DNA of 64,000 nt, from NCBI GenBank assembly GCA_944324165.1, contig CALUVG010000010.1, positions 1 through 64,000 on the forward strand, read 5' to 3'. The notes under the pieces were generated by a model. The model was given only the letters and a program-made list of their open reading frames with translations. It made no database searches and was not told the origin of the DNA. A program made the position numbers and the translations under genes. This document shows, one piece after another, positions 22,434 to 33,393 of the stretch; position 1 is the stretch's first letter; every line of letters starts with the position of its first letter. This stretch comes from Candidatus Gastranaerophilales bacterium. Its GTDB lineage: Bacteria; Cyanobacteriota; Vampirovibrionia; Gastranaerophilales; Gastranaerophilaceae.

Positions 22434-22457
22434 AGAGATACATCCATACAACTGTTT

Positions 22458-22547
22458 GGAGGAGTGCCAGAGCGGTTGATTGGAGCAGTCTTGAAAACTG
22501 TCGAACGTTCACGCGTTCCGTGGGTTCGAATCCCACCTCCTCCTCCA
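22458..22547 (+). tRNA. tRNA-Ser(TGA)
   Basis: About 90 nt with a long variable arm, as in class II tRNAs. Acceptor GGAGGAG pairs with CTCCTCC, the anticodon loop CTTGAAA gives TGA, the T-arm is GTGGG-TTCGAAT-CCCAC, and CCA is encoded. Integration target of island 2. Confidence 0.95.
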
Positions 22548-22582
22548 TTTTGAAAGAGCCTCAAAAGGCTCTTTTTTAGTGC
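22521..22582. repeat. attachment site of island 2, left copy (in tRNA-Ser)
   Basis: Starts in the T-arm of the tRNA and runs through its terminator. Matches 32918-32979 at 60 of 62 positions. Confidence 0.9.
22553..22577 (+). terminator. terminator of tRNA-Ser, island-borne copy
   Basis: AAAGAGCC, loop TCAAAA, GGCTCTTT, then T-run. The same hairpin with loop TTGA is at 32950-32971, part of the duplicated attachment sequence. Confidence 0.75.
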
Positions 22583-22631
22583 ATTTTGGACATATAAACA
22601 TTTCCGTAAATATACATCGCATATCCCTCTT

Positions 22632-22649
22632 GGGGACTACGTGGGGACT
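22632..22649. repeat. GGGGACT arm-type pair, left end
   Basis: GGGGACT at 22632-22638 and 22643-22649, 11 bases start to start, about one helical turn. The same spacing recurs at the right end. Confidence 0.65.
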
Positions 22650-22691
22650 AAGAAATTTTTCTGCTATAATAATAAAAACTAGGAGTATGAC

Positions 22692-24581
22692 ATGGTAGAA
22701 CAAGCAGAATTAACACTTACTTTTGACTTGAGAACAATAGAACATCTTGGTATTCAAATGTATAAAACATTACCGCCTGTTCTTGCTGAAATGATTTCTA
22801 ATGCTTATGATGCAGATGCAACATTTGTTGATATTAAATTAATTGAAAATGATAGTAATAAACAAATCCTTATCATTGATGATGGTTGTGGAATGTCTTT
22901 TGAAGAAATAAACAATTCATTTTTAGTGATTGGTAGGAATCGTAGAAAAAGCGATTCTCAAAATATTGGATTAACTCCTAAGGGAAGAAAAGTTACAGGT
23001 AGAAAGGGACTAGGTAAATTAGCAATTTTTGGAATTGCTACTCACATAGAAATTCAAACTGTAAAAGATGGCAAAGAAAATATTTTTGCAATGGATTTAA
23101 ATGATATACTTGACGAAAAAAATAACGGAATATATAAGCCACAAATTATAAAATATAATGAAGATGTTACTTGTAAATCAGGAACCAAAATTATTCTTAG
23201 TGGGATAAAACGAAAAAATCCAATAGATATTTTTGATTTAAAAGCAAGTATTGCCAAAAGATTTGCTTTTGATGTCCCAGATTTTATTATAAATATTTCT
23301 AATGAATCTGATGAAACAGTAACAATTACAAATGATACAAAATGGGAGTATATAAATTCTCAATTTGAATGGGTTTTTGATGATAAACACTGTAACGAAG
23401 ATTCTTTCCTACAAGATAATAAGATTATTGGGAAAATTGTTACTACAAAAACTCCATTACCAGAAGAACAAAGAGGTATATTTTTATATGCAAGAGGTAA
23501 GTTAGTAAATGCTAATGAGTTCTATGGTATAAAAACAACAACCTCCCTAGCATATAATTATATGACTGGTGTATTTTATATAGATTATGTGGATGATTCT
23601 AGCACTGATTTAGTAACAACGAATAGGGAAGGTTTAATATGGGAACGTGAAGAATTGCAAACTCTAAAAGCATGGTTAGTCGATAAATTACAATTTGTAG
23701 AAAAACAATGGAGTGAAAAAAGAACCCAACTAAAAGAAGATGAAATATCAAAAGTAACGGGTTATAAACCTAGTGAATGGATTGAAACATTACCTAAAAG
23801 AAAACAAAAACTTGCAAAAGGATGGATAGATAGTATTTATAAAGATAATTCAATTGACGAAAACAAGGCAGGTGAATTAATTGACCATTTACAAATGTGT
23901 TTAAAATTTGATTCTTTTGATGATATGGTAACTGACTTGGAAAATTCTGGGTTAGATGAAGTAAAAGTTTTAGATTTATTTAAAGAATGGCATTTAGTTG
24001 AAGCTCAAGAATTATATAATCTTTCAAGGGGTAGAATTAAAGCAATACAAAAACTTGAACAATTTATAAATGAAGATGCAAAGGAAGTTCCTACTATCCA
24101 TAATTTTATAAAAGAATTCCCTTGGATATTAGATCCTAAAATGACTATCTATAAGGATGAATGCACATACTCAACATTACTACAAGAACATTTCCCTGAA
24201 AATAATGAAGTATTAGAAGAAGATAAAAGATTGGATTTCTTGTGTACTGGTTTTGGAGATACACTATATATTGTAGAATTAAAAAGACCGTCATGCAGAA
24301 TTTCTCAAAAAGAGTTAAGCCAATTATTAAAATATCATGCATTTATAAAAGATCACTTAATTGGGACATCTGAATCTTCATATCATCAAGTTGCAAGTTA
24401 TATTATTGGTGGTAGTATTGTTGGTAATACAGAATTTAATATGCAAATTGAAGCGATGAAGACACAAAGAGTTTATATTGAAATTTATCCCGAAATGTTG
24501 TCTAGAGTTAAGAATTACCATAAAGAATTTATAGATAAGTATAATGAATTACAGAAAAGAGAAACGACAAGTGTTAGTTAA
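22692..24581 (+). CDS. GHKL ATPase fused to a PD-(D/E)xK nuclease domain
   Basis: 629 residues. The N-terminal GHKL ATPase shows AEMISNAYDAD (E33, N37), IIDDGCGM (62-68) and GRKGLGKLA (around 103-112), as in Hsp90/MutL/MORC-type proteins. A helical middle follows. The C-terminal 150 residues (IKEFPWILDP, then D515 in RLDFLC and E529-x-K531 in VELKRP) match the PD-(D/E)xK pattern of Shedu/DUF4263-like nucleases. The combination suggests an ATP-gated DNA nuclease for defence. AGGAGTATGAC precedes the ATG. The end overlaps the next gene, so the two are coupled. Confidence 0.75.
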   Translation: MVEQAELTLTFDLRTIEHLGIQMYKTLPPVLAEMISNAYDADATFVDIKLIENDSNKQILIIDDGCGMSFEEINNSFLVIGRNRRKSDSQNIGLTPKGRKVTGRKGLGKLAIFGIATHIEIQTVKDGKENIFAMDLNDILDEKNNGIYKPQIIKYNEDVTCKSGTKIILSGIKRKNPIDIFDLKASIAKRFAFDVPDFIINISNESDETVTITNDTKWEYINSQFEWVFDDKHCNEDSFLQDNKIIGKIVTTKTPLPEEQRGIFLYARGKLVNANEFYGIKTTTSLAYNYMTGVFYIDYVDDSSTDLVTTNREGLIWEREELQTLKAWLVDKLQFVEKQWSEKRTQLKEDEISKVTGYKPSEWIETLPKRKQKLAKGWIDSIYKDNSIDENKAGELIDHLQMCLKFDSFDDMVTDLENSGLDEVKVLDLFKEWHLVEAQELYNLSRGRIKAIQKLEQFINEDAKEVPTIHNFIKEFPWILDPKMTIYKDECTYSTLLQEHFPENNEVLEEDKRLDFLCTGFGDTLYIVELKRPSCRISQKELSQLLKYHAFIKDHLIGTSESSYHQVASYIIGGSIVGNTEFNMQIEAMKTQRVYIEIYPEMLSRVKNYHKEFIDKYNELQKRETTSVS

Positions 24582-25344
24582 ATTTCAAATTATTCATAAA
24601 CTTAAAGAAAAAGATTTTATTGAAATTATTAAATCTGCAGTAAAATTAGTTAATGATAAGATTCTTAAAGAACATCCACCATATTGTGAAGAAGAGGATT
24701 TACCAATTAGTCCCATATTTACTTATCATACTGAACAAAAAAGTTGTTCGTTAAGTGGAATATGTCTCGATTTATCGCAATACGCTGAAGCCTATTATGA
24801 TGATTATGATTCTACTATATCAATGGGGTTCTATTGGGGAGCTGGTGCTGCAATTGATGAAGTTATTGGTTACATTGATTTATATATTGAAACAATAAAA
24901 TCGAATAAAAATATTATCCAAATAATAAAATATGAAGACACAAACCTTCAAAATGCATATTGGCTATTGACTAAAGAAATATATGAATTAGAAATGAGTT
25001 TGCGAGAACTAATTAATTTTTTATTATTTAAAAATTCTAATGATGGTGATATCTGTTCTTTACTCAAAAATAAAGTGAAGATAAGACATTCTATAAATAA
25101 ATTTTTCTTTGATGAAAATCAAGAAAATGAAATTTTTTCCTTGGATTTCACGCATTATCAACAAATATTTGAAAGTTATCCAGAAATATTTACTAAATCT
25201 ATATTGGATGATATTGATAAAATAAGGATATTTAGAAATTCTGTTATGCATAATAAAGGCTATACTTCAACTAAACCAACAGAATTTTGGGATGCTAAAG
25301 ACCGTTTATTTGATTTTATTACAAATTTTTGGAATTCTGTATAG
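24544..25344 (+). CDS. HEPN-domain protein partnered with the GHKL nuclease
   Basis: 266 residues from the ATG at 24544, inside the previous gene; a GTG at 24571 has a better upstream AGAG and may be the true start. The N-terminal half has no recognised motif. The C-terminal half is helical and ends with KIRIFRNSVMHNKG, where RNSVMH fits the HEPN catalytic motif R-x4-H of RNases found in toxin-antitoxin and abortive-infection systems. Its 38-base overlap with the ATPase-nuclease gene implies one functional unit. Confidence 0.65.
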   Translation: MNYRKEKRQVLVKFQIIHKLKEKDFIEIIKSAVKLVNDKILKEHPPYCEEEDLPISPIFTYHTEQKSCSLSGICLDLSQYAEAYYDDYDSTISMGFYWGAGAAIDEVIGYIDLYIETIKSNKNIIQIIKYEDTNLQNAYWLLTKEIYELEMSLRELINFLLFKNSNDGDICSLLKNKVKIRHSINKFFFDENQENEIFSLDFTHYQQIFESYPEIFTKSILDDIDKIRIFRNSVMHNKGYTSTKPTEFWDAKDRLFDFITNFWNSV

Positions 25345-26385: not shown

Positions 26386-27814
26386 TTAAATTAAATCTTC
26401 AAGTGTTCGGGTTTCTTCGCCTAATTCCTGTTTTTCAAGCTTAATGAGCCTGTATTTTGTGCCAGAATTCCGATTAATTGACGTAACTTCCAGAAAGTAA
26501 CCTTTTTCAAGTGCCATTTCCCGTATAGAGTCAATATAATCATCAAAGCGGTCTTTGAATTTATCGCGGGATATTCCAAAATTATTAAAGTGCTTGTATA
26601 TAAGGTCAGTTCTTTTAAACCCTTTACCTAAATTGTTTAAGAAAAAATCCCATAATCTATCATAAGCATCATCAGATTTAGGTTTGTATCTAAGGAATGT
26701 TTCAAAGTCTTGTGATATAAATTCAACGGTATCAATAGCCTGCTGCATATCTTCCGCATTAACAACCAACTCTGTCGGGTGATTTAAGCAAGCATACAGG
26801 CATGCAATTTTTAGGGCTTTGTGTTGCCGGCTTTGAATTTCTTTTTTACGCAAGACATCTTCTGTTGCATTTTCAAGTTCTTCCATTCTTACTTTATAAA
26901 GATAATGAACATCTTTTAGGGCTTCTTCGGTTATTTTATAAACCGCATTTGTTGGTATTTTGTTTTGAAGATTTCCATAAATCGTTCAGAAAGTTTTTTG
27001 CAATCTTTATAAAATTGTTGTTCTTTTCTAAAAGCGACTTCTTTGTCATATTCAATAATTTTATCCTGTTGTTTCTGGAAAGATATAACGCATCTTCTAC
27101 CTAAGCCGGTTTGCATAAGCAGGTTGAACATATTTTTGAGATTCCCGCTGCTAAACAGGGTTGGATCTGAAAGAAACAGACAATTTACAGGCATGTCCTC
27201 AATACTTGCTTCCCGCTTACCATGCTTAATTGATTTTGAGGGAATCTTACCGTCATAACCGTCATATAGACAGCCTAGGAATTGTTTTTCGGTATTTTGC
27301 GCGGAATCTAAAAACATTCCAAATTCCGACATCTTATAGGTAATAGCCCCGAATCCTGCTTCTTTTAGAGTTTTGGCATCTTCAAAAGCCCCTCTTGTGT
27401 TCCGTCCACGACTTCTAAGACAGGATAGCGAATAGATTTTTCAGCTTCTTTTATAAGTTGTTTTATGGGCTTATTGTTTTTATCGGTATATTCTTCTCGA
27501 ATTTTTTGTTTCTTTTCAAGGTAATACGCTTCTGCTTTTTCATTAAACCAATTTCTGAACGGTTTAAATACCAAACTATCATATTCGTTTGAAATTCTAT
27601 CTTTACCGCCGCCTGACGGAAGCAATATAATCGCATAATAATTAGGGATGTCGATAGTATCAAGTTTCTTATACCGCACACCTTTTGAGGTTATCATTTG
27701 TGCAACTTTCAGAAGTTGTATTGATGTAATAGCCGTTTTTGATGTGTTCACATAACGGTTTGAAAATACGTCTAATGTTTCATTCATAATTTTGGGTAAT
27801 CTAATTTTTGTCAT
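26386..27814 (-). pseudogene. helicase-like replication ATPase broken by two -1 frameshifts
   Basis: Three consecutive fragments of one protein. The first (27814-27365) holds IILLPSGGGKDR, a Walker-A-like loop, and ends in DGTQEG. The second (open from about 27390 to 26931) continues FEDAKTLKEAGFGAIT and SEFGMFLDSAQN, with VNCLFLSDPTLF as a Walker-B-like strand. The third runs to 26386. Each junction is a -1 shift at a run of four identical bases (CCCC at 27389-27392; TTTT at 26958-26961, plus-strand letters). The order suits a DUF3987-type island helicase. Decay, sequencing error or programmed shifting are all possible. Confidence 0.65.
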
Positions 27815-30198: not shown

Positions 30199-30915
30199 TC
30201 AAAGAAGATACTTTTTGAGGTAACGACACCATTCAGTAGCTAAGAAATTATCAATAGCCCTTTCTAAGTCAGAAAAATGCCTTTCTTGAACCAAAAATAA
30301 GTAATCCCTCACAGAATACCTTGAAGCCCTTAAATAAAACATTTTTGCATTTTTCGTTTCTTCCATATCTATAAACCGGTAAAATCTTTTTAAATATTCA
30401 TTTTCAGGCTTTCTATCCCTATGATTATAAATAATTACCGTTGCCCCTTGTATATAATAATCTGCCGCTTCTTTATACGTTGTGTATTTGTTACCGTTTT
30501 TTGAATAAGGATTTGTGCTTTTAACTTCAAGCCCGTTGTCCGGATCTAAAAATATTACATCTTGCTTACCTAATTTCTTTAAAGCTTCCAAATGCCATTT
30601 ATCGCGGCTCTTGCCCTCAAGTATTCTGTTCCAAAATAAAGTATTTTCAAAGAGTTTTGCTCTTTCAAGTCTTGCAACTGTTCTGTTATTACTCAACCCA
30701 ATTTTCTGTAGGGCGCAATACAAATCAATATCTGGAGTATCACAATCACATTCTAAAAATTTTGTGTGCTTACCGTCTGTAAAAGTTTTTGAGTGTTCGG
30801 GTTCATCCGGTGTTAGATACCAGTTTAAACCTATGCTGAAACCTGCATTTTCAAGCCCTCTCAAAATACCTAATTTTGTATAATCACCAACATCACCTGC
30901 ATATTGATTTTTCAT
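30199..30915 (-). CDS. conserved island protein, unknown
   Basis: 238 residues. The N-terminal KNQYAGDVGDYTKLGILRGL and central DVIFLDPDNGLEV are distinctive. Similar proteins beginning NQY-GD-DY-K-GLLR occur on phages and integrative elements (from memory; no function known to me). The DPDNG segment could bind metal. It is convergent with the integrase gene, three bases from its end, so it was probably added as a cargo cassette. Confidence 0.6.
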   Translation of the reverse strand: MKNQYAGDVGDYTKLGILRGLENAGFSIGLNWYLTPDEPEHSKTFTDGKHTKFLECDCDTPDIDLYCALQKIGLSNNRTVARLERAKLFENTLFWNRILEGKSRDKWHLEALKKLGKQDVIFLDPDNGLEVKSTNPYSKNGNKYTTYKEAADYYIQGATVIIYNHRDRKPENEYLKRFYRFIDMEETKNAKMFYLRASRYSVRDYLFLVQERHFSDLERAIDNFLATEWCRYLKKYLL

Positions 30916-32917: not shown

Positions 32918-32979
32918 TGGGTTCGAATCCCACCTCCTCCTCCATTTTGAAAGAGCCTTGAAAGGCTCTTTTTTAGTGC
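32918..32979. repeat. attachment site of island 2, right copy
   Basis: The original 3' end of tRNA-Ser with its terminator, displaced 10,397 bases from the intact gene. Only the T-arm onward is present. Confidence 0.9.
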
Positions 32980-33393
32980 GTTTCAGCTTTGTCCTCAGTT
33001 GTATTTTTATGTCCGATTCGTTGTACAGAAAATAAAAAGTTGCTCGGGCATACTTGACCAACACCGCTAAATCACAGACAGTCGGAAGCTGCTTGATTAT
33101 AAAAAATCAAATTGGACGAAATCTGACTTTATTAGGACACAAAATTACAAAGAATAATTTTAATCAGGCTATAATTTAATCAAATTATAGAACTTCCGAA
33201 GTCCAATCAATGTCCAATTTATCGTTGGGCAGGTATGCCTAATCTACTGGCTGGCTTGTTAGGATGAAAGCCCAACATATAAGTTGCATAAAAACTAACA
33301 TTCAATTTGGGAGTTTTTCATAACAAATATTAATTTTACAAATCTGCGGAACTAATTTAACAATTTACAGCCTTTTTTATGATATAGTAAACA
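32980..33393. other. intergenic after island 2, hairpins only
   Basis: No gene seen. GTTGGGC at 33224-33230 can pair with GCCCAAC further on (about 33269-33275), enclosing smaller hairpins. AAAAACT (33290s) with AGTTTTT (33310s) could terminate transcription. The GTTGGGC/GCCCAAC pair resembles the hairpins at 55139-55206. Confidence 0.35.

Follow-up and report, generated by a model that had tools for sequence, protein, structure and literature searches.

What takes the place of the methyltransferase when a nuclease of a restriction-enzyme family is carried without one? The question is raised by two adjacent genes in a 64,000-nucleotide stretch of DNA from a Candidatus Gastranaerophilales bacterium (phylum Cyanobacteriota in GTDB; contig CALUVG010000010.1), the whole of which we call the window. 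The first gene, A (22692..24581, + strand), is predicted to encode a 629-residue protein with a GHKL-S5 ATPase, a helical region, and a PD-(D/E)xK nuclease; the second, B (24571..25344, + strand, GTG start), is predicted to encode a 257-residue protein with a ferredoxin-like N-domain and a HEPN-type C-domain. The original prediction, which located both reading frames correctly, proposed that the pair was a candidate new defense system. Its parts and its logic proved to be known, as GHKL-nucleases and HEPN genes linked to restriction-modification (R-M) loci have each been described before, but the pairing of the two without a methyltransferase, and the swapping of partners by B, appear to be new: we found neither the combination of a methyltransferase-less HgiDII-type nuclease with this HEPN-type family nor the partner swapping in the open-access literature, PADLOC, or NCBIfam.

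Results

A matches the NCBIfam model NF050001 (BbrUII/HgiDII) over residues 8-622 with an E value of 1.3e-93 and a score of 315 bits. Because the curated cut-off of this model is 550 bits, A is a divergent relative of the modeled enzymes and not an equivalog. PADLOC REase_II models also match A, and judged by its sequence its architecture is a known one, that of the BbrUII/HgiDII restriction-enzyme family (paraMORC3). The Pfam domain HATPase_c_3 was found at residues 28-156 (E 1.1e-22), and the GHKL residues E33, N37, D40, D63, G65, G67, G103, G106, and G108 are invariant among 33 family members. In an AF2 model, the predicted MORC/Hsp90-like ATPase module (residues 10-345; 22719..23726, + strand) had a mean pLDDT of 81.5; it matched MORC3 (5ix2_B) with a Z score of 24.5 and an rmsd of 3.2 over 300 aligned residues, and MORC2 (Z 23.5, ~300 residues) was the other best structural match.

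The putative PD-(D/E)xK nuclease, recognized by its conservation and by a profile match to SduA_C, occupies residues 461-629 (24072..24578, + strand). D515, E529, and K531 (codons 24234-24236, 24276-24278, and 24282-24284, + strand) had been named as its catalytic residues, and conservation in the 33 members indicates that this choice was correct: D515 and E529 are invariant, and K531 is K in 27 members and M in 6. A further invariant residue, E465, completes what we read as an E-D-ExK site. The proposed ATPase-nuclease fusion stands, and A keeps all of the motif residues that were checked. The description of the nuclease as Shedu-like holds only at the level of remote profile similarity. A single direct profile comparison of the nuclease with SduA_C (PF14082, DUF4263), as distinct from a database search, gave an hhalign probability of 96.5%, and SduA_C matched 6 of the 33 family members (best 5e-5), but A itself had no SduA_C match in Pfam at E<=1. 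These comparisons suggest a distant relationship between this nuclease and that of Shedu. In a fold search with A, the ATPase filled the match list, and no nuclease-domain match was among those listed.

The resemblance to Shedu prompts an explanation in which A acts alone. VcSduA has the same domain order and protects as a single gene (PMC12137116), and A might likewise recognize phage DNA or a replication intermediate and cut it without killing the host, with B adjusting A or being dispensable. We consider this unlikely, although it deserves serious attention: the remote relationship to SduA_C would fit it, and most homologues of A lack B. On the other hand, profile matches place A much nearer to the HgiDII family than to SduA_C, and B, with its HEPN motifs intact and under purifying selection, stands beside A in 3 of 3 members of the clade to which A belongs. 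The refuting condition that had been set, that homologues of A always occur without B, holds for most of the homologues and fails for the closest clade, which always has B.

The next gene does overlap A, as had been proposed, but the proposed overlap of 38 bases exists only if B starts at the most upstream ATG (24544), which gives the longest reading frame. We dropped this start. Because relatives begin at the position of GTG 24571, we prefer that codon, from which the window protein begins MLVKFQIIHKL; its counterpart in a genome of another genus (G113) begins, from an ATG, MLARFQIIHKL. With this start, the overlap is 11 nt (GTGTTAGTTAA), and it is also 11 nt in G113. In the third genome that carries the pair (G133), A and B are separated by a 4-nt gap. 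The tight coupling of the two genes that had been claimed is sustained, and the pair has been retained in three genomes. In G133, a DUF4365 gene whose N-terminus resembles PADLOC Aga_REase (7e-19) follows B by <=15 nt (L017 5206-6264, - strand) and is possibly a third member of the operon.

Our assignment of B rests on the conserved start in G113, the AF2 model, the HEPN motifs, and weak HEPN-family matches in relatives. The model (mean pLDDT 79.6) places a ferredoxin-like domain at residues 1-123 and is helical in the C-terminal half. The HEPN motif RNSVMH, to which the original prediction had drawn attention, lies at residues 222-227 (R222-x4-H227; 25234..25251, + strand), and RNxxxH is present in 15 of 15 relatives with a complete C-terminus. 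A second candidate motif, EMSLR (E141-x3-R145; 24991..25005, + strand), lies inside a predicted helix (124-155), and EMxxR is present in 18 of 18 relatives. Both correspond to the HEPN signatures Rx4-6H and Ex3[KR] (PMC3710099). Because R-x4-H arises in 11% of shuffles of B (RN-x3-H in 0.9%), the motif in B alone would be weak evidence. Among the 18 relatives, we found weak profile matches to Abi_2 (six), HEPN_Swt1 (two), and HEPN_MAE_28990 (one); the best match to Abi_2 (PF07751) was 1e-4, and one relative scored 21.4 bits against a gathering threshold of 25.6. B itself had no meaningful family match in Pfam, PADLOC, or NCBIfam, reached no curated HEPN threshold, and did not match PF07751. 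Foldseek/VIA gave mainly ferredoxin-like matches to residues 1-128, with no HEPN chain among the matches listed, and a structure-by-sequence search with B returned nothing useful. Taken as a whole, the sequence comparisons indicate that B is very probably a HEPN protein.

HEPN domains are common toxins (PMC3710099), and the overlap of the two genes would also suit a toxin-antitoxin-like pair in which B is the toxin and A its neutralizer, the nuclease being secondary. This seems to us distinctly improbable, as A is large and its ATPase and nuclease residues are fully conserved, relatives of B are paired with unrelated restriction proteins, and one locus (L047, described below) keeps B without A. 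A search for an RNA antitoxin near the pair with Rfam passed the tRNA alone; sX4, at 22450-22649, was under threshold and overlaps the tRNA.

The attachment site that had been reported next to the genes is real. It consists of a tRNA-Ser(tga) gene (22458..22547, + strand; ARAGORN and Rfam tRNA), which is the integration target, and a 66-nt direct repeat (95%) whose left copy (22521..22586, + strand) comprises the 3' end of the tRNA gene plus a hairpin and whose right copy (32918..32983, + strand) closes an integrated element of ~10.4 kb. A and B are the left cargo of this element, at its tRNA-Ser end. A probable operon promoter and ribosome site (22662..22685, + strand) precede A; by reading the sequence, we identified a putative extended -10 element (TGCTATAAT, 22662-22670), which was not among the picks of a consensus promoter scan, and AGGAG at 22681-22685. 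The element also includes an integrase, a repressor-like HTH gene, and primase-like genes. A 238-residue reading frame (YAGDVGDYTKLG..., DPDNG; 30199-30915, - strand) adjoins the integrase and is kept in G113, and it has no match in Pfam, NCBIfam, PADLOC, or PHROGs. At the far end of the element lies a homologue of PD-T7-3 (PADLOC, E 1.1e-114), a second defense cargo. G113 carries a related element beside tRNA-Ser (L016/L049), in which A is ~91-92% and B 86-88% identical to the window proteins and PD-T7-3 is replaced by an ApeA-like HEPN gene (PADLOC Cas13-ApeA, 2e-18; L016 82-1002, + strand). The right-hand slot of the element is thus an exchangeable cargo slot.

Both A and B are under purifying selection. 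A comparison of the window with G113 gave Ka/Ks ratios of 0.12 (A) and 0.11 (B), similar to those of the integrase and the primase, and on these values we rejected decay of the two genes. Within A, synonymous divergence falls from 0.57 (residues 1-350) to 0.13-0.18 (residues 351-629), a drop suggestive of recombination spanning the nuclease end. In the window, a primase-like replication gene of the element (26386-27814, - strand) is split among three reading frames, and it is a single 475-residue reading frame in G113 (L016 5452-6879); the window element may no longer replicate, or the breaks may be assembly errors. The state of this gene and the rarity of the pair in the order could be taken to mean that A and B are themselves a decaying remnant without present function. 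We find this scarcely credible, given that both genes are intact, are strongly constrained, and keep all of their catalytic residues.

Members of the A family normally come with a C5 methyltransferase, so the unusual feature of A is the absence of this enzyme. A scan of viral contigs with the single sequence of A as query found no relative. Of 80 homologues of A on viral contigs, 77 are accompanied in the same stretch by a C5-methyltransferase gene, which in nearly every case is the immediate neighbor; L054, L060, and L127, which is truncated, lack one, and none of the 80 has B. Annotated plasmid relatives of A likewise adjoin a C5 methyltransferase. None of the three A-B loci has a linked C5 methyltransferase. 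In a tree of A, the three A-B genomes, which belong to one order, form a monophyletic group with a support of 1.0; the nearest sampled relatives are methyltransferase linked, and the tree does not fix the exact sister. A linked C5 methyltransferase was probably lost in the A-B lineage, and the simplest reading is that its loss was accompanied by the gain of B. Separately, we noted one relative of A, lying at the end of its contig (L019 5018-7302), that has no methyltransferase on the available part and is preceded by a 216-residue reading frame.

It could be that an ordinary R-M system persists and that an unlinked host methyltransferase protects against A, with B carried as a passenger or acting as an abortive-infection gene of its own. 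Restriction is the normal role of the family (PMC2292703), and because other, adenine-type DNA methyltransferases occur unlinked in each of the three genomes, protection of A by such an enzyme is conceivable. We nevertheless regard this as improbable. No PF00145 gene was detected in G133 (92% complete), and in G113 PF00145 is present only as fragments of a broken gene. The window genome has two PF00145 genes, both unlinked to A-B; one (on C6) has its own 186-residue neighbor upstream, and the other (on C2) lies among phage-type genes. The mobile element that carries the A-B pair, moreover, has no linked methyltransferase.

A genome scan with B yielded 17 loci: 14 behind HsdS, two A-B loci (L046 and L049), and L047. 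Scans of viral contigs and searches of plasmids with B found no relative. In the 14 HsdS loci (L034-L045, L048, and L050), B lies directly 3' of HsdS, mostly with an overlap or a gap of a few bases, and HsdM lies upstream, except on contigs that start inside the operon. The hosts include cyanobacteria, Chloroflexota, Acidobacteria, Betaproteobacteria, Syntrophus, Dojkabacteria, Latescibacteria, and two archaea. The HsdM of the HsdM-HsdS-B loci has a nuclease-like N-terminal HSDR_N_2 domain, and no HsdR was seen in the cyanobacterial HsdM-HsdS-B loci examined. The HsdM-HsdS-B loci (L029-L031, L034-L045, L048, and L050) constitute a candidate three-gene defense system in their own right.

In L047, the B protein is 70% identical to that of the window. 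The genes upstream of it encode a reverse transcriptase of the AbiP2 type and an AIPR protein similar to AbiU/MzaE, and immediately before the intact B is an 18-codon remnant of the C-terminus of A (KNYHKNIIDKYNELKKRK, 78% identical). Because this remnant precedes B, A must once have been present and have been lost by displacement or deletion, whereas B was retained, and because B has persisted after the loss of A, B may not need A. B may now be a partner of the AIPR protein or a leftover. The locus (L047 3416-7777), with McrBC genes downstream, is a defense island in which the replacement of a gene is visible.

Discussion

We have observed two intact genes with complete sets of catalytic residues, coupled and under selection, without a linked methyltransferase, and a B family that is found repeatedly behind restriction genes. 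Our preferred reading, which we put forward tentatively and at somewhat less than even confidence, is that A and B form a two-gene, two-tier anti-phage defense descended from an R-M system of type II, in which A would attack DNA and B would be a latent RNase coupled to A, by analogy with PrrC. GHKL dimers are ATP-driven clamps. A would be an ATP-gated DNA endonuclease whose MORC-like GHKL dimer closes as a clamp on DNA or on a DNA-protein complex, thereby licensing the C-terminal PD-(D/E)xK nuclease; as there is no linked C5 methyltransferase, A should be gated otherwise than by the linked modification of its family. B would be a HEPN RNase kept latent, its translation coupled to that of A, and the A complex would either restrain it or serve as its trigger. 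Once A has engaged invader DNA or has been neutralized, B would cleave RNA (tRNA or mRNA) and stop the infected cell. The release of B upon the engagement or failure of its DNA-targeting partner is inferred from its position, from the analogy with PrrC (PMC2610378), and from the broader case made in PMC3710099; the physical interaction of A and B, the RNase activity of B, its target and trigger, and the abortive outcome are likewise inferred, and B may be triggered by A or silenced by A.

A broader proposal is that B is a plug-in RNase module common to unrelated DNA-restriction machines (the GHKL HgiDII-type nuclease, the MAD2-like HsdM-HsdS, and possibly the AIPR protein) and that pairing with B allowed a type II-like nuclease to drop its methyltransferase, gating by the A-B complex replacing DNA methylation. 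We offer this as speculation that may well prove wrong. The A-B clade provides a natural and testable case of a restriction-enzyme family escaping its protective methyltransferase, with the methyltransferase-linked relatives as controls, and the B family provides a way to study how a single RNase is connected to diverse DNA sensors. Should the PrrC logic hold, two-tier DNA/RNA immunity would no longer be confined to type I systems but would include a GHKL nuclease.

Several known systems share parts of this arrangement. In the MADS system, the resemblance is to Mad2 and Mad5: the HsdM associated with cyanobacterial B matches MAD2 (E 1.4e-92, under the cut-off) and the HsdS matches mad5, but the B loci contain only HsdM-HsdS-B and not a full mad operon, and the window has neither gene. 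The Abi_2/AbiF/AbiD family (PF07751; PMC12373285, PMC3710099) shares RNxxxH and accounts for the weak matches in 6 of the 18 relatives of B, whereas neither B nor its close relatives match the family and no RNA-antitoxin signal was found nearby. Abi2 has been recorded in R-M operons, and a survey published in 2013 covered HEPN genes linked to R-M loci (PMC3710099).

VcSduA, a GHKL-Shedu protein, depends on the residues of both its ATPase and its nuclease and gives protection at every MOI (PMC12137116); the same study groups GHKL-nuclease proteins of the build of A with Shedu. Like A, it is likely to be an ATP-gated nuclease without a methyltransferase; unlike A, which has B as a neighbor, it is a single gene with a recognized DUF4263. 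The BbrUII/HgiDII enzymes are homologous to A over its full matched length and have the same ATPase and nuclease residues, but A scores below the curated threshold and its locus has a HEPN-type gene where the C5 methyltransferase would be. The methyltransferase M.HgiDII recognizes GTCGAC (PMC5867850). In the part of the paraMORC3 description that we consulted (Iyer 2008, PMC2292703), these proteins, like A, combine GHKL-S5 with a C-terminal restriction-fold domain carrying E-D-ExK, and some are noted as standalone genes; the A-B combination was not found in that part.

The closest parallel in logic is PrrC, whose HEPN RNase gene lies inside the EcoprrI R-M locus; the R-M protein keeps PrrC silent, and inhibition of that protein by a phage activates PrrC (PMC2610378, PMC3710099). 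PrrC has its own ABC ATPase where B has a ferredoxin-like domain, and the EcoprrI partner is of type Ic whereas that in the window is of the HgiDII type. In both cases, however, a HEPN-type gene is part of a restriction operon, A-B here and HsdM-HsdS-B elsewhere, and the position of PrrC behind hsdS recurs in the B family.
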